Origin: Clostridia bacterium
GTDB taxonomy: Bacteria > Bacillota > Clostridia > Oscillospirales > CAG-272
Assembly (NCBI GenBank): GCA_017473865.1
Contig: JAFUJB010000002.1
Location: 1-64,000 of the forward strand
DNA length: 64,000 bases
Direction: 5' to 3'
Position numbers and translations under genes: made by a program. Of this stretch, positions 2,582 through 8,839 are shown piece after piece. The notes under the pieces are model-generated. The model made no database searches. It had not been told where the DNA came from and saw only the letters and a program-made list of their open reading frames with translations. Every line of letters starts with the position of its first letter. Within the stretch, counting starts at the first letter, position 1.

Positions 2582-2610
2582 TTTACATTAAAGCGGCGGT
2601 GTGGTATAAT
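2582..2610 (+). promoter_or_regulatory. Sigma-A promoter of the 2633 gene
   Basis: TTTACA (2582-2587), 17-base spacer, TATAAT (2605-2610), 22 bases before the ATG. Confidence 0.7.
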
Positions 2611-2632
2611 AAAATAAAGTGAGGTGTTTAAG

Positions 2633-3142
2633 ATGGATTCACAAGGACAAAATTTATTTGACATCAAAAAAATTTCTTCTGAAATACAACAACTTTTGCC
2701 CGATATTGAATGGGAAATAGATTCCGGTTTTGATTATATTTCCTTGACTTATCCAAATGTTAAAAACCCACGCTTTCCTTTAATTGTTTCCATAAACGAG
2801 GAAGAAGGTATTTTCGTCGATTTAAGTAATTGCGGTGGTATTTTAGAATGTCATTCCGATGTTTCTGAAGTAGTCGAACTTATTCAAGACGTACTTAATG
2901 ATAAACTGGCAGTAGCAATTGCCTATCCTGATGAAGAAAAATTTGAAAAACAAATACGATATTCAATGATGGCTTCTTATGTGTTAGACAACAGTGAAGA
3001 TATATCCGATTTTGAAAATTTCATTAGTAGAATCTCTAAACCGCGTTCTTTTCTTAATAGACTGAATGTCTTTGCGTTTCATGGAATTATTGAAGTTTCC
3101 AACTGGTCGGGAAGCAGATATTATAAGTTTTATCGCAAATAG
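2633..3142 (+). CDS. Hypothetical protein, 169 residues
   Basis: I do not recognise this family. The start is placed at ATG 2633 because GAGGTG lies at 2621-2626; a GTG at 2624 would overlap that site. The product is acidic, soluble and without signal peptide or membrane segment, with alternating strand- and helix-like stretches. It has its own sigma-A promoter and a strong terminator at 3143-3171, so it is a monocistronic unit. It sits directly outside the left spoVAC-fragment boundary of the radical SAM cassette. Codon use is AT-rich compared with the core genes. No function is proposed. Confidence 0.75.
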   Translation: MDSQGQNLFDIKKISSEIQQLLPDIEWEIDSGFDYISLTYPNVKNPRFPLIVSINEEEGIFVDLSNCGGILECHSDVSEVVELIQDVLNDKLAVAIAYPDEEKFEKQIRYSMMASYVLDNSEDISDFENFISRISKPRSFLNRLNVFAFHGIIEVSNWSGSRYYKFYRK

Positions 3143-3171
3143 AAATCGTCGCCATCTCGGCGACGATTTTT
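3143..3171 (+). terminator. Terminator after the 2633 gene
   Basis: Perfect 11-bp stem AAATCGTCGCC/GGCGACGATTT, 5-base loop, then TT. It may also serve the minus-strand spoVAC fragment. Confidence 0.8.
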
Positions 3172-3173
3172 GG

Positions 3174-3305
3174 TTAAAACAATGTCGTTATCCAATAAAT
3201 CAAGCCGTAAACCACACTCGCCACGGTACCATACACAATAACAGGCCCAGCTATTGTAAACATCTTCGCACCGACGCCCAAGACAAAGCCCTCTGCTGAT
3301 GTCAT
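3174..3305 (-). pseudogene. spoVAC: 3'-terminal fragment of a second spoVAC
   Basis: Read on the minus strand, this stretch encodes the last 41 or so residues of SpoVAC (LGVGAKMFTIAGPVIVYG... to ...WITTLF) and the stop. It differs from the intact copy at 8387-8839 by only two residues in that region. The DNA is identical over the last 38 bp examined (3184-3221 versus 8397-8434), then diverges mainly at third codon positions. Nothing homologous to the rest of the gene lies upstream. Because the differences are mostly synonymous, this copy evolved as an intact gene until recently. It forms a direct repeat with the intact gene around the 3398-8323 cassette. Confidence 0.85.
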
Positions 3306-3332
3306 CTTAGGACACACCAGTTTTGGGGTCTA

Positions 3333-3361
3333 TTTACTTTCGAAGCAAAATATGGTATAAT
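3333..3361 (+). promoter_or_regulatory. Sigma-A promoter of the permease/radical SAM operon
   Basis: TTTACT (3333-3338), 17-base spacer, TATAAT (3356-3361). No terminator-like hairpin or riboswitch is visible in the short leader before ATG 3398. Confidence 0.7.
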
Positions 3362-3397
3362 TGTAATCACACTTTGAAAAAAGGATAATAACCATAT

Positions 3398-4546
3398 ATG
3401 AAAAATAAAAAACTTACATTTCTGGAATCACTCATGTTGGTGGCTGGTGCAGGTATCGGAACGGGAATTTTGACCATTCCGTACGCCATCGTTAAAATTG
3501 GTGTGTTCGGTACACTTGTTGCTCTCGTATTTGCTTATGCAGCGAGTGCATTTATGTATCTGATCATCGCGGATCTTACGCGTAATTCCGAGAAACCCGA
3601 AGATCTCCTTGCAATTCTTAACGAGCATCTATTCAGTGGAAAGGGTAAAAAAGCTCTTAACATTGCTTTTCTCGTTCTGCTCGTGCTTCTTTTACTTGAG
3701 AACTTGGTCGTATATATTCTTTGTGCCGGCAATGTGCTGACGGATCTGTTGGGTTTGAATGACACGGTTACAAAAATTATATTCTACACTCTCGCATCTG
3801 TTGTGATTGTTTTTGGTGTTAAGGGTATGGGCGTTGGTGAAAAGCTCTCTATGCTATTAATTGGCGGCGTCGTTCTTGTGCTGATGGTGTTGTCGTTCAT
3901 CAACGTAAAAGGTTCGCTGAACTTTTCCTTTGGCACACCAAACACCGTTTTTGCTGTGTACGGTCTTTTTATGTTTGCCTTTTCCGCTATTTTTTCGATC
4001 ATTCAAGTTTGCAACCATATCGAAAAGAAGGAACAAACGGGTAAGGCTATCATTGGCGGTCTTACTCTCAACGCGTTGATTACGGCTGCATTTGCCGTTG
4101 CGGTCATACTTGGCTCTGACACGGTTACCGAAATCGCTACCATCGGTCTTGCCCAGAGCATCGGAATCCCTGTTGTAAGGATTCTGTGCTCACTCCTTGT
4201 ATTACTTGCTATGTTTACTTCCTTTTGGTCAAGTGGATTCGCCTTTTCGGATGTTGTAAGCGGACAATTTGGACTATCCACAAAGATCTCTTGGTTCATC
4301 GCAACTGTTCCTTCACTGATCATTGCCGTACTTCTTCCACTTGGAATACTTGATTATGTTCAAATCGGTGCAGGCGCACTCTCTATCGTTCTCGTTATTG
4401 TTGTTCTACCTGCCTATTTCAATGCCGTAAAAAATCCAAAACAAAAACTTTTACTCGGCAAATTTTCACGAAACAAAGTTATGATTTCCGCCATCGCTGT
4501 AGCAATCGTTCTCATGGCGATTTCTTCGTTTATTCCGATCAACTGA
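3398..4546 (+). CDS. Aromatic amino acid-type permease (HAAAP/APC superfamily)
   Basis: A 382-residue integral membrane protein with about 11 hydrophobic segments. The N-terminus has the glycine-rich GAGIGTGILTIPYA signature of the hydroxy/aromatic amino acid permease group in the APC superfamily, which imports Trp, Tyr, Ser or Thr with protons. AAGGAT lies 11 bases before the ATG. It is the first gene of a tight operon with two cobalamin-binding radical SAM enzymes and a GNAT-like protein, so it may bring in the substrate or export the product of that pathway. The substrate cannot be read from the sequence. Family assignment is good; specificity is unknown. Confidence 0.8.
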   Translation: MKNKKLTFLESLMLVAGAGIGTGILTIPYAIVKIGVFGTLVALVFAYAASAFMYLIIADLTRNSEKPEDLLAILNEHLFSGKGKKALNIAFLVLLVLLLLENLVVYILCAGNVLTDLLGLNDTVTKIIFYTLASVVIVFGVKGMGVGEKLSMLLIGGVVLVLMVLSFINVKGSLNFSFGTPNTVFAVYGLFMFAFSAIFSIIQVCNHIEKKEQTGKAIIGGLTLNALITAAFAVAVILGSDTVTEIATIGLAQSIGIPVVRILCSLLVLLAMFTSFWSSGFAFSDVVSGQFGLSTKISWFIATVPSLIIAVLLPLGILDYVQIGAGALSIVLVIVVLPAYFNAVKNPKQKLLLGKFSRNKVMISAIAVAIVLMAISSFIPIN

Positions 4547-4570
4547 TTGCAGAAAGGATTTTAATTTACT

Positions 4571-5920
4571 ATGAAAATAGCGTTACTTTCACCAGCAGGC
4601 GCGATGCACAGATATAACGGTATGTTTCACAAGGGGCTTCACTATGCGCCCATAACGCTTGCGCTCCTCGCCGCGCTTGTCCCGGAGGAACTTAAAGCCG
4701 AGGTCGTGATCTATGATGAAACTGCTGAAGCAATTCCGCTTGACACTGATGCCGACATTATTGCTATTACCTGCATTACGGGCACTTCGTCAAGATGCTA
4801 CCGCTATGCCGACTACTTCCGGAGCGTTGGAAAAACGGTGCTTCTCGGCGGTGTTCATCCTACACTCATGCCCGATGAAGCAGCAAAACACGCTGATGCC
4901 GTTCTCACAGGTCTTGGAGAAAAGACCTTTCCGCAGGCTCTACTCGATATCCGTGACGGATGTCTGAAGCCAATATATCGCGGAGAAGGCTGTCCAGATA
5001 TTGCTGGAAGACCCCTACCCCGAAAAGATCTGCTCAACAAGAAAAAATATATAACCCTCAACACCGTAGAAGCGGTAAGAGGTTGTAATCACTCATGCAC
5101 CTTCTGCGCCTATCCTGCAGCATTTGGTAAGGGGGTCATCACACGTCCCATTGCGGACGTCATTGCAGAGATTAAGACGTTCAAGGGAAAAGAGGTCATC
5201 TTTCCCGATGTGAATCTGATTTCTGACTTGGAATACGCCAAGGAGCTTTTCACGGCCATGATTCCCCTTAAAAAGTGGTGGATGGGGCTGACAACTACAG
5301 CTATTGGCCACAATGATGAATTGCTCGATATCTTCCAAAAAAGTGGCTGTAAAGGCATTCTCATAGGCTTTGAATCAGTCAATCAAGAAACGCAGCAAGG
5401 TATACATAAGGGGGTTAACCACGTTGAAGAATACAAGGAACTGATGGACAAGCTTCATCGCAGAGGTATTATGGTTATGGGTTGCTTTGCCTTTGGTGCG
5501 GACGAAGACGGCCCCGACGTATTCAAACGCACCGTTGAACTTTGTATCGAAGCCAGGATTGACCTGCCGCGTTTTTCTATCATCACACCTTTTCCTGGTA
5601 CGGAATTCTACCGCGAGCTTGATAGTCGGGGTCGTATCATAGAACGCGATTTTGCTATGTATGATGTCGAACACTGCGTATATCAGCCAAAGCAGATGAC
5701 CAAAGAAGAGCTGGAAGCAGGTGTCGCATGGGCATGGAAAGAAACCTACTCTTGGAAAAGTATTTGGAAACGGCTTGATCTAACTAAATTTAGAACCATG
5801 AAAAGCCTTTATATGCTCGTCAATATTGGGTACAGAAAATATGCAAAAGGATTTGAAATATTCGGTGCAGATATTATGACGGATAACAGCGATATTCCTA
5901 TGCCGAAAGGAGAAAAGTAA
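4571..5920 (+). CDS. Cobalamin-binding-domain radical SAM enzyme (class B-like), first copy
   Basis: A 449-residue protein. Residues 1-130 look like a B12-binding Rossmann domain (DADIIAITCITG..., LLGGVHPTLMPDEA), and as in many class B enzymes there is no DxHxxG loop. Residues 165-380 are a radical SAM barrel with the 4Fe-4S motif CNHSCTFC (Cys172, Cys176, Cys179), followed by GFESVNQETQ and ITPFPGTEFY. Relatives include class B methyltransferases and BchE/HpnJ-type ring or carbon-skeleton enzymes. The start has GAAAGGA 9-10 bases upstream. It lies 24 bases after the permease and 1 base before the second radical SAM gene, implying coordinated production. The reaction is unknown. Confidence 0.9.
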   Translation: MKIALLSPAGAMHRYNGMFHKGLHYAPITLALLAALVPEELKAEVVIYDETAEAIPLDTDADIIAITCITGTSSRCYRYADYFRSVGKTVLLGGVHPTLMPDEAAKHADAVLTGLGEKTFPQALLDIRDGCLKPIYRGEGCPDIAGRPLPRKDLLNKKKYITLNTVEAVRGCNHSCTFCAYPAAFGKGVITRPIADVIAEIKTFKGKEVIFPDVNLISDLEYAKELFTAMIPLKKWWMGLTTTAIGHNDELLDIFQKSGCKGILIGFESVNQETQQGIHKGVNHVEEYKELMDKLHRRGIMVMGCFAFGADEDGPDVFKRTVELCIEARIDLPRFSIITPFPGTEFYRELDSRGRIIERDFAMYDVEHCVYQPKQMTKEELEAGVAWAWKETYSWKSIWKRLDLTKFRTMKSLYMLVNIGYRKYAKGFEIFGADIMTDNSDIPMPKGEK

Positions 5921-5921
5921 A

Positions 5922-7262
5922 ATGAAAATAACCTTTATACTTCCTGCAATAGGAAAAAAGCCGGGGCAGAAATATTTGCGCAGTTGGCTGATGGAACCAC
6001 TCACTATTGCTGTGCTTAACTCTATGATTCCCGAAGTTTATGAACGAGAATTTTTTGACGATAGAATTGAAAACATCAATTACGACACAAATACCGATAT
6101 CGTTTTTATCACGGTTGAGACCTACACCGCTAAAAGAGCATATTTTATCGCGTCCGAGTTTCAAAAGCGCGGTAAGAAGGTCGTTATGGGCGGTTATCAC
6201 GTAACCCTTTGTCCTGAAGAAGTATCCGAGAACGCAGATGCTATTATGGTTGGCAACGCAGACCGTATCATTTCTTCTGTTATTAGCGACCTTGAAGCAG
6301 GAACTTTACAGAAACGCTATGACGGCGGTACTTGCATTGCCTACAAAATGCCAAACAGAAGCATTTATGCCGATAAGATGAAGAAATACCTACCCGTATC
6401 CCTTGTAGAAACAGGGCGCGGATGTTATCACAACTGTGAGTTTTGCTCTATCGCACAATATTATCATTCGCATTACATACACAGAGATGTCACAGATATC
6501 ATCAACGAGATCAAATCCTGCAAGCACAAGATATTTTTCTTCGTGGACGACAGTATATTTTCGGATAAAGCCTTTGCACGTGAACTGTTTAAAGAATTGA
6601 AAAAGCTCAATATTATTTGGACAACTCAGATCACTCTTGACATCGCAAGAGACGAAGAAATGCTCCGTTTGATGAAGGAAAGCGGATGTGAGATGGTACT
6701 TATCGGATTTGAATCCATTGAGAGCGATAATCTCAAACAAATGAACAAAGGCTGGACAGAACGCCTTGGGGAGAGAGATGCTTTGATACAGAAGATACAC
6801 GATGTGGGCATCGGCATATATGCAAGCTTTGTTTTCGGCTTTGACTCGGACAACGAGGACACTTTTAAAGCGACGCTTGACTTCTGTCAAAAGCATCAGT
6901 TTTTCGTTGTTGCATTCAACCACCTTTTAATTTTTCCCAACACAAAGACTTATGATTCCTTCAAGGCGGATAATCGTTTGATTTCTGAGAAATGGTGGTT
7001 GCAAAGAGGATATACCTTCGGCACGATCACGTTTACTCCCAAGCAGTTGACGCCCGAATCACTGCGTACATTCTGCAAGCAGTATAAAAAAGAGTTTTTT
7101 CGATTTGGTTCGATTTTTAAACGTGGTAGAACTATGTTATCCAGAACCAACCGCTTTATGATCAATATTGCTTTTTGGTTTATCAATATACTTTTCCATT
7201 TTGAAGTTGATAAGCGGGCAGGAATTCCAATCGGTGAAAATTTAGAGGAAAGCAAAAAATGA
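5922..7262 (+). CDS. Cobalamin-binding-domain radical SAM enzyme, second copy
   Basis: A 446-residue protein with the same architecture as its upstream neighbour: B12-binding-like N-domain (VVMGGYHVTLCPEE near residue 90) and a radical SAM domain with CYHNCEFC (Cys168, Cys172, Cys175), then GFESIESDNLKQMNKG. Outside the motifs the two proteins are clearly different, so they probably do successive or distinct steps rather than being a fresh duplication. It starts 1 base after the previous stop, with AAAGGAGAAAAG just upstream, and overlaps the next gene by 4 bases (ATGA), a sign of translational coupling. The substrate is not predictable. Confidence 0.9.
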   Translation: MKITFILPAIGKKPGQKYLRSWLMEPLTIAVLNSMIPEVYEREFFDDRIENINYDTNTDIVFITVETYTAKRAYFIASEFQKRGKKVVMGGYHVTLCPEEVSENADAIMVGNADRIISSVISDLEAGTLQKRYDGGTCIAYKMPNRSIYADKMKKYLPVSLVETGRGCYHNCEFCSIAQYYHSHYIHRDVTDIINEIKSCKHKIFFFVDDSIFSDKAFARELFKELKKLNIIWTTQITLDIARDEEMLRLMKESGCEMVLIGFESIESDNLKQMNKGWTERLGERDALIQKIHDVGIGIYASFVFGFDSDNEDTFKATLDFCQKHQFFVVAFNHLLIFPNTKTYDSFKADNRLISEKWWLQRGYTFGTITFTPKQLTPESLRTFCKQYKKEFFRFGSIFKRGRTMLSRTNRFMINIAFWFINILFHFEVDKRAGIPIGENLEESKK

Positions 7263-8323
7263 GCGAGTTAAAATGCAAGGCGTCAGCTACCGACGGTAGA
7301 GAGATACTACAGATTCTTGAAAGCTCCGCTGCCAAGGGCAATATTGAACTTTTATATACCCGCCGTCCCGATGCTTATGAATCTTATATGAAAGAGTCGG
7401 GCGAGGCGCGTGTGTTTGTTTCAAAAGCCGGAGATCGTACCATTGGCACTTGTGCTGAAATTATACGCGAAGTATATATAAATGGTGAGATATGCAAAGC
7501 CGCCTATATTTGTGGGCTGAAAAAAGATGCAGCATACAACGGAGGCATTGGATTTGGAGCAAGATTTATCAGAGAACTCTGGCGTGATGATATAGATTGT
7601 TATTACTGCTCGGTAGTATCGGATAATAAAGATGCTCAAAAAATGTTTAAAAAAAGCACGCGCATCGTTTCGATGAAACCTATTACCGAATATACCACGT
7701 TTATCTTGAATACAAAAATCAAAGTAAGATCACCTATACATGATCTCACTTTTAGAAAAGCCACTGAAAACGACCTTAAAACGCTTATTGAATTTCTAAA
7801 TAAGCAGGGACGGAAAAATGACCTTTTCCCTGTAATAACATCACTTGAACAGTTTCACAATCTAACACATGAAAATTTTTATATTCTAAGTAAAGATAAT
7901 CAGATTGTTGCAACTGCTGCACTTTGGAATCAAACAGGATACAAACAATATGTCGTAAAAAAATACCGCAAAATAATGAAATTGGCTTGTATAGCTAATC
8001 CCATTCTATCTCTTTTAGGCTACATTAAACTTCCAAAGGAAAATGTAACGCTTGATTTTCCTATGCTCTCGTTTTTCGTAAGTGAAAATGACAACCCAAA
8101 ATACTATCGCATTTTTCTCAACGAGGTGAAACGCGAGGTTAGCAAGAAATACAAAATGTTTGTAATTGGACTACCCAAAAAACATTTTGCTTGGCCAATA
8201 TTCAAGAGTATGCCATCTATCCATTTCGATACAACGATATACGAAGTAACTTTCCCTTGGGGCAAGCAAGGCTGCAAGAAAATAAGTGCTGATAATATAT
8301 ACCCAGAATGTGCCTTGCTGTAA
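7259..8323 (+). CDS. GNAT-like acyltransferase, possibly tandem domains
   Basis: A 354-residue soluble protein. The N-terminal half resembles a GNAT fold: an acetyl-CoA pyrophosphate-loop-like YNGGIGFGA at about residues 93-101 and a following SDNKDAQKMFKK helix typical of motif B. The C-terminal half (from about residue 160, LTFRKATENDLKTL) begins like a second GNAT domain but lacks a clear motif A. It overlaps the preceding radical SAM gene by 4 bases (ATGA), so it is the last gene of the operon and is followed by a terminator. It could acylate the product of the radical SAM enzymes; that is inference. Confidence 0.65.
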   Translation: MSELKCKASATDGREILQILESSAAKGNIELLYTRRPDAYESYMKESGEARVFVSKAGDRTIGTCAEIIREVYINGEICKAAYICGLKKDAAYNGGIGFGARFIRELWRDDIDCYYCSVVSDNKDAQKMFKKSTRIVSMKPITEYTTFILNTKIKVRSPIHDLTFRKATENDLKTLIEFLNKQGRKNDLFPVITSLEQFHNLTHENFYILSKDNQIVATAALWNQTGYKQYVVKKYRKIMKLACIANPILSLLGYIKLPKENVTLDFPMLSFFVSENDNPKYYRIFLNEVKREVSKKYKMFVIGLPKKHFAWPIFKSMPSIHFDTTIYEVTFPWGKQGCKKISADNIYPECALL

Positions 8324-8352
8324 ATATTGCTCTTGAAATCAAAAGCAACATA

Positions 8353-8383
8353 AAAATGCTTGACCAACTTGGTCAAGCATTTT
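8353..8383. terminator. Bidirectional terminator between cassette and spoVAC
   Basis: Perfect 13-bp stem AAAATGCTTGACC/GGTCAAGCATTTT with a 5-base loop. The A/T flanks let it serve the cassette on plus and spoVAC on minus. Confidence 0.85.
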
Positions 8384-8386
8384 GTG

Positions 8387-8839
8387 TTAGAATAGCGTCG
8401 TTATCCAATAAATCAAGCCGTAAACCACACTCGCTACAGTACCATACACAATCACCGGCCCCGCAATAGTAAACATCTTTGCGCCGACGCCGAGGATATA
8501 TCCCTCCGCTTTTGTGTCGAGGGCAGGGGATACGACCGCGTTTGCAAATCCCGTTATGGGAACTAGTGTTCCTGCGCCCGCGTGTTTTGCAAGCTTGTCA
8601 AAAACTCCGACAGAGGTAAAAAATGCCGAAAGAAAAATTAGCGTTACGGGAACAAGTATTTTTACGGTATCTTCCTTTAAACCAATTTTTAGATAGAAAT
8701 TGAACATAAGTTCCGCAAATGAACAGATAAGTCCCCCCACAATAAAGGCTTTTACACAGTCAAGCAAAAGGGGGGATTTTTGCGCGGTCTTGTCTGCATA
8801 TTTTTGATATTGTGTTTTCTTGTTGCTGATATCAATCAC
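8387..8839 (-). CDS. spoVAC: Stage V sporulation protein AC
   Basis: A 150-residue membrane protein matching SpoVAC: N-terminal YQKYADKTAQKSPLLLDCVKAF, then GGLICSFAELMF, FFTSVGVFDKLAKHAGAG, VPITGFANAVVSPALD and AKMFTIAGPVIVYG. SpoVAC belongs to the SpoVA channel that moves dipicolinic acid through the inner forespore membrane. The best start is GTG 8839, directly against AAAGGAG, which is unusually close, so the start is less certain than the identity. CATACTA at 8868-8874 (minus strand) resembles a forespore sigma-G -10 element, but I see no good -35. No spoVAD or spoVAE lies beside it, so the usual operon is split here. Its 3' end is repeated at 3174-3305. Confidence 0.93.
   Translation of the reverse strand: MIDISNKKTQYQKYADKTAQKSPLLLDCVKAFIVGGLICSFAELMFNFYLKIGLKEDTVKILVPVTLIFLSAFFTSVGVFDKLAKHAGAGTLVPITGFANAVVSPALDTKAEGYILGVGAKMFTIAGPVIVYGTVASVVYGLIYWITTLF

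Follow-up and report, generated by a model that had tools for sequence, protein, structure and literature searches.

A probable site-specific array of gene cassettes in the 3' part of spoVAC in gut Clostridia

In an integron, cassettes that mostly hold a single gene stand in tandem at one fixed site, with a recombination site between cassettes and an enzyme encoded outside them. To our knowledge, integrons are the main known case of cassette arrays in which single genes are exchanged at a fixed place. The spoVAC arrays described here, first noticed in the window (the whole 64,000-nt stretch of Clostridia bacterium DNA that was analysed), resemble integrons: cassettes that differ in content and mostly hold one gene follow one another at one fixed site, and the enzyme is not in the cassette. 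By contrast, serine recombinases rather than IntI are implied (PF00589 had no match on the window's contig, C17), a coding gene tail appears to stand where integrons have attC, and many cassettes come with a promoter and are oriented towards the anchor gene. SCC and ECC elements (CcrAB, rlmH 3' end), as the excerpted account in PMC6222049 presents them, share with the spoVAC arrays large serine recombinases (LSRs), the 3' part of a conserved gene as attB, direct repeats, variable cargo and remnants. Unlike SCC and ECC, the spoVAC arrays target codon 112 of spoVAC instead of the rlmH 3' end, imply three LSRs instead of two, consist of recombinase-free cassettes of ≈1 kb (a Pfam scan of the window cassette found no serine recombinase), repeat a gene tail of 117 nt that ends in its own stop codon, and have a promoter module common to cassettes. 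The array works like an integron or an SCC and is neither.

Triplet serine-integrase ICEs, according to the available part of PMC4701971, carry three adjacent LSR genes in the same orientation near the attachment site and are bounded by 2-8 bp repeats; the targets named there are mutT, traG, and hsdM. The helper that we propose resembles them in its three tandem LSRs beside the attachment site (5/5 contigs) and in a 2-3 nt repeat (genome G152), whereas its target is spoVAC and recombinase-free cassette arrays occupy the same site. The gin element in gerE involves three serine recombinases, with girA-girB as an operon and girC apart (PMC5595907, in extract). Like skin and gin, the G152 serine recombinase element interrupts a sporulation gene, spoVAC, which in Bacillus encodes part of the channel through which spores are loaded with dipicolinic acid (PMC13059800, in extract). 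In contrast to skin and gin, the array leaves the window spoVAC complete and uninterrupted, so that no excision is needed. No report of spoVAC tail arrays was found in open-licence PMC articles, preprints excluded; in the accessible passages of PMC6907783, spoVAC comes up solely as part of the cargo of a gut island.

The spoVAC locus of the window

The original prediction, made from the window sequence, held that an element had entered the 3' end of spoVAC and restored the gene, leaving a tail fragment behind four intervening genes. The repeat is real: two directly repeated segments of 137 nt (3166-3302 and 8379-8515), 83% identical, lie 5213 nt apart. The window's genome contains three spoVAC matches, namely the intact gene (C17:8390-8839, minus), the tail (C17:3177-3317, minus, covering residues 103-150 at 87% identity; E 1e-20, well beyond chance), and, on contig C8, a 29% match that falls inside a spoVAEB-like gene adjoining spoVAD. 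The fragment had been drawn as 41 codons (3174-3305); it is a spoVAC tail, but homology is confined to codons 112-150 and the stop codon, and bases 3294-3318 are a conserved cassette-end motif instead of spoVAC. This 117-nt tail segment (T) lies 5.2 kb downstream of intact spoVAC, and the four genes between the copies are on the opposite strand (Table 1).

Table 1. Features of the window locus, in order from intact spoVAC outward
Feature	Position	Strand	Basis
Intact spoVAC, 150 codons, GTG start; attachment gene	8387..8839	-	PF03862 E 3e-41
T of intact spoVAC, codons 112-150; read as cassette 1's contribution	8390..8506	-	
Core dinucleotide GA of intact spoVAC	8506-8505		
Hairpin terminator TGCTTGACC/GGTCAAGCA, common to spoVAC and the convergent cassette genes	8353..8384	.	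From sequence by eye
Cassette 1 minus its T: terminator, four-gene cargo on +, promoter, arm P	3294..8386	.	
GNAT-like protein, 354 aa	7259..8323	+	PF13527 E 1e-4, 22.8 bits, below 25-bit cut-off
Radical SAM protein 2, 446 aa	5922..7262	+	PF04055 E 5e-19; PF02310 (B12-binding) E 6e-6, below its cut-off
B12-binding radical SAM protein 1, 449 aa	4571..5920	+	PF04055 E 2e-18, PF02310 E 9e-10
Amino-acid permease, tryptophan/tyrosine-type, 382 aa	3398..4546	+	PF03222 E 1e-9
Cassette 1 promoter-like site TTTACT-17-TATAAT	3333..3361	+	One mismatch to pattern
Arm P, right end of cassette 1: GGTGTGTCCTAAGATGACATCAGCA, joined to GA	3294..3318	-	Alignment with other right ends
Displaced spoVAC tail: T (3177-3293) and stop	3174..3293	-	Repeat, matches, dN/dS to intact copy 0.04
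Hairpin beyond displaced tail	3143..3169	.	From sequence by eye
Cassette 2 cargo, 172 aa, no Pfam family	2624..3142	+	
Cassette 2 promoter TTTACA-17-TATAAT, same type as common promoter module	2582..2610	+	Consensus compared by eye

Over codons 113-150 the displaced and intact copies differ by 15 synonymous and 3 non-synonymous changes (dN/dS 0.04), the mainly synonymous divergence that had been predicted, and by this pattern the two tails look as though they came from different functional spoVAC genes. Entry of an element into the 3' part of spoVAC with restoration of the gene agrees with our reading. A 38-nt identical run between the copies was also found (3184-3221), but it stops 7 nt before the stop codon and therefore not at the gene's very end; we place the crossover not in this run but at the GA of codon 112. 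No integrase lies between the copies, as had been noted, and mobilisation in trans best fits the evidence among the options offered. The alternative of a lone degraded element gave way to one member of a tandem cassette array found in many Oscillospirales assemblies. Neither of the contrary cases named beforehand appeared. Diverged synonymous sites, a common border motif, and diverse cargo speak against local tandem duplication. The other case was a relative with the same gene order and no repeat; in G001, of the same genus, T is absent and a single 323-aa ORF separates spoVAC from spoVAD, so that its gene order differs from the window's.

A second cassette, which the original prediction had missed, lies beyond the fragment; no arm P is recognisable past its promoter in the window sequence.

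Tail arrays and their borders in other genomes

Downstream T hits, several of them weak, were present in 40/107 loci with intact spoVAC (1-6 per locus, all on the same strand), where the 107 loci had been chosen by likeness to the window's spoVAC; in a kinship-based sample, 5/59 relatives had spoVAC fragments. The array data are all from metagenome assemblies, L001 and L002 were omitted as duplicates of the window, G067=G226 and G072=G201 were each taken as one genome reached twice, and a single query was used to look for spoVAD. Because an intact spoVAC was the condition for choosing the 40 array loci, they do not test whether the gene stays open. That the host gene is open with the element's last codons is seen in the complete window spoVAC and in the tail exchange of loci L034 and L060. 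Loci L110-L112 start with fragments, and in the L111 and L112 genomes intact spoVAC is on another contig or 12 kb upstream.

T copies bounded 69 cassettes with a median length of 990 bp, which remained from 72 intervals after two shorter than 250 nt and L096 were dropped (L096 is near-identical to L074; it was left out of cassette and pair counts and kept in the 40/107 loci and the right-end rows). By mechanical ORF calls (at least 50 aa), 49/69 cassettes hold a single ORF; the longest ORF is opposite to spoVAC in 53/69, and 62 representatives contain 94 Pfam families. A 43-bp promoter module is common to 33/69 cassettes, where it stands beside 22 ORF clusters, compared to 0/69 shuffles. Sequence of the GGCTTG type, related to the window terminator, occurs at the left end of 29 of the 69.

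Two candidate features of the system were rejected. The window cargo is not a fixed unit: radical SAM protein 2 has copies 82-90% identical in 4 other genomes of 394, and the four-gene operon is present in 4 genomes besides the window's, again of 394 and from four families, with neither T nor arm in the stretches examined, which implies that this cargo has, or had, other ways of travelling as well. Carriage by phages or plasmids gained no support: the spoVAC tail has matches in 7 phage and 16 plasmid records, and the eight inspected (L174-L181) contain no arm or second T and match upstream of codon 112 as well.

Recognisable T copies begin at one border, where the arm TGnGTCCTAnnTTGACAnnAGCA is joined to the GA of codon 112, so written in 100/100 aligned intact spoVAC genes; the intercassette site is P plus the spoVAC tail. 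The 72 right-end rows were anchored on AGCAGARGG, whose conservation is therefore by construction; beyond the anchor, GTCCTA is 93-97% conserved and CA (-4, -3) 99%. These rows include a chance match (L071), two split fragments listed twice, and L096 repeating L074; four fragments without a recognisable arm were listed apart. The exact 28-bp border motif occurs in 6/295 genomes of the order, and its reversed control in none.

Homologous cassettes are alike through P (0.87 in the last 25 nt; 11 pairs), and their right-hand T thirds are near background (0.71/0.69/0.76 versus 0.68/0.69/0.73). On the left-hand side the T thirds stand above background (0.80/0.79/0.83; 12 pairs), and left exceeded right identity in 21 of the 27 pairs that have both, with 5 against and 1 tie, the pairs not being independent. 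The cassette common to L034 and L060 is identical over 584/584 nt and 96% alike in the last 90 nt; its left T is identical over 117/117 nt, and the preceding 120 nt of spoVAC are 72% alike. Co-inheritance of the left T is only partial in most homologous pairs, which requires a second process to be assumed. Codons 142-147, the conserved 3' core ATTTATTGGATAAC, had been suggested as the crossover point because within-array identity ends there; this idea was dropped in view of the border at GA and the whole left T common to L034 and L060, and we now take the fading of identity to reflect homologous mixing between T copies. To judge by dN/dS, which is 0.079 among T fragments and 0.073 among intact spoVAC genes, the T copies look once functional. 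Target-site duplication by a transposase was also discarded, since it fits host-like T and is contradicted by the 15:3 pattern in the window and by the identical left T of L034 and L060.

Serine recombinase triplets at the same site

Elements with three tandem LSRs end in a like arm and T, with the LSR genes 0.1-0.4 kb away, in 5/5 informative cases, that is, in-clade triplets whose contig extends past the third gene. L151 was found by its arm, and L212, L220, L221, and L222 by recombinase likeness alone; four triplets are cut. The triplet clade has 100/100 support, and the 6 outgroup triplets have no T. All three L151 proteins contain PF00239 and PF07508. Upstream of LSR1 are CHC2-type primase-like, RecD2-like helicase, and YqaJ proteins; no relaxase was found among the 7 upstream proteins scanned, on short contigs.

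In G152 a triplet element interrupts spoVAC and brings no tail. Its ends read attL ..TTTAAAAAA-GA-TGAGAGTG and attR ..GACACAAGCA-GA-AGGCTATG, and two relatives of the same genus (G126 and G165) have the empty site ..TTTAAAAAAGAAGG with spoVAD directly behind. The common core of attL and attR is 2-3 nt (GA/AGA) in this one element. Its left end, the one triplet left end seen, has no T, unlike the cassettes, and the arms of G152 and L222 have only the TTGACACAA-n-CAGA half in common with cassette arms, not GTCCTA.

A search of 26 genome entries (24 distinct genomes, the window's included) found no in-clade triplet and identities of at most 36% to the third L151 recombinase, which among 394 genomes of the order had a match above 50% only in G152. 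Apart from the finds by recombinase likeness, L151 is the only locus examined with a triplet beside T.

A model of cassette insertion and its alternatives

We consider it probable that spoVAC carries a site-specific gene-cassette array in its 3' part, into which serine recombinases acting in trans insert at codon 112, each cassette supplying a new spoVAC tail. A cassette would consist of T (codons 112-150, with stop and terminator), cargo mostly facing spoVAC, a promoter that would drive it, and arm P. As a circle with P joined to T at GA, it would recombine at the GA of host codon 112; spoVAC would keep its 5' part and take the cassette's tail, and would thus stay functional. The old tail would be pushed outward to mark the border to the older cassette, so that repeated insertion would build an array with the newest cassette adjoining spoVAC. 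The enzymes would most likely come from the three-tandem-LSR module on separate mobile elements using the same site, and cassettes, having no LSRs, would depend on them in trans for movement. The 5' two thirds of the T copies would then be mixed by homologous recombination between them. The sequences directly show the arrays, their borders and common ends, the diverse cargo, the triplets beside a like arm and T, and one interrupted and one empty site; from these we infer the mobility of cassettes by means of these LSRs, as well as circles, insertion order, promoter-driven expression, and T mixing. Several points count against the model: the array genomes searched have no in-clade triplet, the arms of G152 and L222 lack GTCCTA, the G152 triplet element breaks spoVAC and supplies no tail, and the left T is mostly co-inherited only in part. 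In addition, serine integrases usually join attP with attB only (PMC3783163, in extract), whereas a P-T circle would join an attR-like site with attB.

We regard it as evenly balanced whether this is an integron equivalent of its own kind in gut Clostridia, with serine recombinases in trans, a spore-gene tail as site, and standardised expression cassettes (tail and terminator, gene, promoter and arm) across bacterial families. If so, an independent system with another enzyme class in uncultured gut Clostridia would imply that this architecture arose more than once, and would explain the spread of small accessory genes among Oscillospirales. The arm plus spoVAC tail would then offer an annotation signature for finding cargo, and the system would point to recombinases with a short defined site. 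The invariant first two bases of codon 112 (100 intact genes) and the exchange-tolerant tail raise the question of why spoVAC serves as harbour.

The cassettes could instead be remnants of complete triplet-LSR elements that integrated in tandem and decayed, with no mobility of their own. This is rather unlikely, although complete triplet elements use the same site, the array genomes searched have no in-clade triplets, and some parts look decayed (an in-frame stop in 3/66 T fragments; window cassette 2 without an arm). The lack of T at the G152 left end, the promoter module beside so many ORF clusters, and the compact single-ORF design are unlike random decay of such elements, as is the finding that L034 and L060, from two genomes, have nearly the same single-gene cassette and an identical left T. 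Insertion by RecA-type homologous recombination only, in which circular DNA with a spoVAC tail crosses over anywhere in T with no dedicated recombinase, would account for mosaic T copies, within-array identity raised over codons 112-137 and fading after ≈138, and host-like T in several arrays. We judge it very unlikely, given that right-hand homology ends at GA in aligned pairs, that arm P, though conserved, has no evident homology to spoVAC, that triplet LSR genes adjoin arm and T in every informative case, and that attL and attR of G152 have so little in common.

Both the 2-3 nt common core at the border and the absence of arm P from all 20 recombinase loci examined (L131-L150) argue against a tyrosine recombinase, such as a resident Xer-type enzyme, as the cassette mover, which we hold to be the least probable of these explanations and highly improbable. 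Xer-like enzymes of 327-349 aa do occur in 12/14 genomes with recombinase loci examined, but they are 40-88% alike between genomes, as for housekeeping genes; a PF00589 match lies 16 kb upstream of spoVAC on the G073 array contig, the only such case in 10 genomes with known array contigs. With only the resident-type Xer common (PF00589, 22 genome entries) and arm P absent there, a tyrosine recombinase was rejected as the main enzyme, and insertion by serine recombinases in trans is the reading we prefer.

The G073 array contig (C19) has a second PF00589 match besides that at 16 kb, more than 80 kb from spoVAC.

The displaced spoVAC tail and cassette arrays

The original prediction that the 3' end of spoVAC is repeated in the window, with mostly synonymous divergence between the copies, was confirmed. 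The repeat covers 137 nt at 83% identity, its copies lie 5213 nt apart, and codons 113-150 of the two tails show 15 synonymous and 3 non-synonymous changes (dN/dS 0.04). The two residues that differ between the displaced and intact tail proteins are adjacent to each other. The window, which covers the first 64 kb of contig C17, comes from a 1.3-Mb, 70% complete genome assembly. Its bases 1-19 are the reverse complement of the first bases of contig C8 of the same genome, on which spoVAD and a spoVAEB-like gene lie from position 1235 onward. These contig ends make likely the gene order spoVAC - cassettes - other genes - spoVAD - spoVAEB, by a join based on the 19-nt overlap only, and with this join about 9.6 kb would likely separate genes that are adjacent elsewhere.

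Features at the spoVAC locus of the window
Feature	Position	Strand
spoVAC	8387-8839	minus
GNAT-like gene	downstream of spoVAC	plus
Two radical SAM genes encoding B12-binding domains, one of these domains under the cut-off	downstream of spoVAC, after the GNAT-like gene	plus
Permease gene	last of four plus-strand genes before the tail copy	plus
Second spoVAC tail copy, codons 112-150 and stop	3174-3293	
Further cassette ORF, 172 aa	2624-3142	
Promoter of further cassette, TTTACA-17-TATAAT	2582-2610	
Repeat-rich gene leaving the contig start, seemingly continued on C8 (19-nt overlap)	1-2510	minus

Short spoVAC-tail fragments were present in 5 of 59 relatives (genomes G003, G007, G011, G045, and G056), in series in three of them. 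Among 107 loci that were selected for similarity to the spoVAC of the window and contain the intact gene, 40 had 1-6 further tail matches, some of them weak (under 51 bits), and all on the same strand and downstream. Successive tails enclose 69 cassettes (minimum length 250 nt) with a median of 990 nt, 60 of them under 2 kb; a single ORF is present in 49, and the longest ORF is directed against spoVAC in 53. Among loci with enough flank, spoVAD lies within 300 nt after spoVAC at 0/39 array loci compared to 19/63 fragment-free loci. Assembly error is disfavoured, because the array contigs derive from several assembly projects and their tails have diverged.

At locus L112 (G076:C1:39613-51867), the first array fragment lies about 12 kb from spoVAC, and the interval, in which no tail matched, is either an unrelated insertion or one cassette of very large size. 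An intact spoVAC in G191 (C279:10627-12235), from another genus of the family of genome G152, has a second tail match (64% identical) 1 kb downstream. In G001, of the same genus as the window, spoVAC and spoVAD are separated by a 323-aa ORF on the opposite strand (L126:11768-14933), and a cassette-type hairpin follows spoVAC; this interval contained no tail copy and no right-end arm, and the ORF is perhaps an old cassette whose right end was lost. Six faecal 'Bacteriophage sp.' records (MT835673, MT835844, MT837002, MT837074, MT837175, and MT837791; L174-L179) look like bacterial DNA within virome assemblies, because the spoVAC match extends upstream of codon 112, with spoVAD nearby in three.

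Cassette ends and the point of exchange

Alignment of 72 right-end rows on AGCAGARGG revealed a common arm outside this anchor (consensus TGnGTCCTAnnTTGACAnnAGCA) that is fused to the GA of codon 112 and shows 93-97% conservation of GTCCTA and 99% of CA. Of 295 order genomes, 6 contain the exact 28-base motif and 0 the reversed control. Upstream of the arm, a 43-bp module is common to 33/69 cassettes (at least 75% identity) compared to 0/69 shuffles (one each), and adjoins ORFs of 22 clusters, which BLASTP at 1e-5 does not connect. Read on the opposite strand, the module contains a promoter sequence directed into the cargo: TT(T/G)ACA-N16-18-TATAAT was found exactly in 32/66 right ends (shuffle expectation 0.0) and with one mismatch in 40/66 (expectation 0.55). 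At the left end, a hairpin often follows the stop, and GGCTTG is present in 29/69 cassettes.

On the right side, homologous cassettes from different genomes are alike through the last arm base and at background level within the 117-nt tail (T); on the left side, T retains some excess likeness. One low likeness value over the last 25 nt (0.32) is due to a one-base length difference. Loci L034 and L060 share a cassette that aligns over 584/584 nt, with 96% identity in the last 90 nt and a left T identical at all 117 bases, and the preceding 120 bases of spoVAC are 72% identical. This sharing of cassette and T beside differing spoVAC sequence implies that T travels at the cassette's left end and that the exchange point is GA. 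T copies within one array show raised likeness over codons 112-137, and therefore a second process is needed, which we propose would be homologous recombination among T copies. The dN/dS in T is 0.079 for fragments and 0.073 for intact genes, with synonymous sites near saturation; such nearly equal conservation would be expected of tails that are for some time part of functional genes.

The likely recombinase and a rival explanation

A scan of IMG/VR with the arm returned one contig (L151), with three tandem large serine recombinases, each containing PF00239 and PF07508. The arm and T lie ≈0.1 kb beyond the end of these genes, and two further cassette ends come after them. The third recombinase had one match above 50% in 394 order genomes, in G152, and a profile of the middle one recovered further viral-collection contigs. 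Nine triplets group with the L151 type (clade support 100/100). Four of these are cut by contig ends, and the five that extend past the third gene (L151, L212 of G152, L220, L221, and L222) all reach an arm and a spoVAC tail within 0.1-0.4 kb; L151 was obtained through its arm, and the other four through recombinase likeness. Outgroup triplets had no tail in their stretches (0/6), although the sequence of L226 and L228 stops 150-225 bp after the third gene. An intact, array-less spoVAC at L051 is preceded, ≈1.7 kb upstream, by the end of a more distant large serine recombinase (L051:3-1301; 28% identity).

In G152, the tail is directly followed by spoVAD and a spoVAEB-like gene, and the 5' part of spoVAC, on a separate contig, ends at codon 112 and continues into foreign sequence. 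The uninterrupted gene reads ..TTTAAAAAAGAAGG.. in G126 and G165 of the same genus, and attL and attR of G152 read ..TTTAAAAAAGATGAG.. and ..ACAAGCAGAAGG.., respectively; a third genome of this genus, G092, had no spoVAC match. The common core of the att sites is GA or AGA, which matches the expectation for serine integrases, given the repeats of 2-8 bp described for triplet elements in PMC4701971.

Insertion of recombinase-less cassettes at codon 112 in trans, the preferred reading, has to be weighed against the accretion and decay of full elements. Among 26 genome entries that bear arrays or fragments and represent 24 distinct genomes, no triplet of the L151 clade was found and no match exceeded 36% identity, and the arms of G152 and L222 agree with cassette arms in their second half only. 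Four other genomes have the four-gene cargo of the window at places unrelated to spoVAC. Genome G011 (L114-L118 and L119, G011:C48) has an uninterrupted, normal spoVAC-spoVAD pair on one contig and 11 tail matches on five other small contigs, which may be mis-binned or may represent an array distant from spoVAC. Moreover, the presumed circular cassette, with the arm joined to T, would require attR-like x attB pairing, which is unusual for serine integrases according to PMC3783163. Therefore, accretion and decay stays a live rival to insertion in trans.

Cargo and class of the system

One protein of at least 100 aa was taken from each cluster, and these 62 representatives matched 94 Pfam families, each in one protein except DMP19, which was in two. 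Among the families listed are oxidoreductases, ROK, ornithine cyclodeaminase, glycosidase, NMN transporter, the transposon protein TnpV, and type I restriction subunits, the last probably from the L044 cassette. This content looks like general accessory genes.

The system is an unusual assembly of ordinary parts. The layout of the spoVAC array works like that of an integron, but one defining integron test was negative; SCC/ECC elements are nearer by enzyme class and target type, but one defining test for them was likewise negative. There is a fair chance that the spoVAC cassette system merits its own class.

A cassette protein of 430-452 aa recurs in six arrays (L038, L046, L058, L065, L069, and L112) on the spoVAC strand, opposite to most cargo. 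The permease - radical SAM - radical SAM - GNAT operon has a patchy distribution, and its copies away from spoVAC (L234, L235, L236, and L237, in four genomes of four families) show 73-78% nucleotide identity to that of the window.
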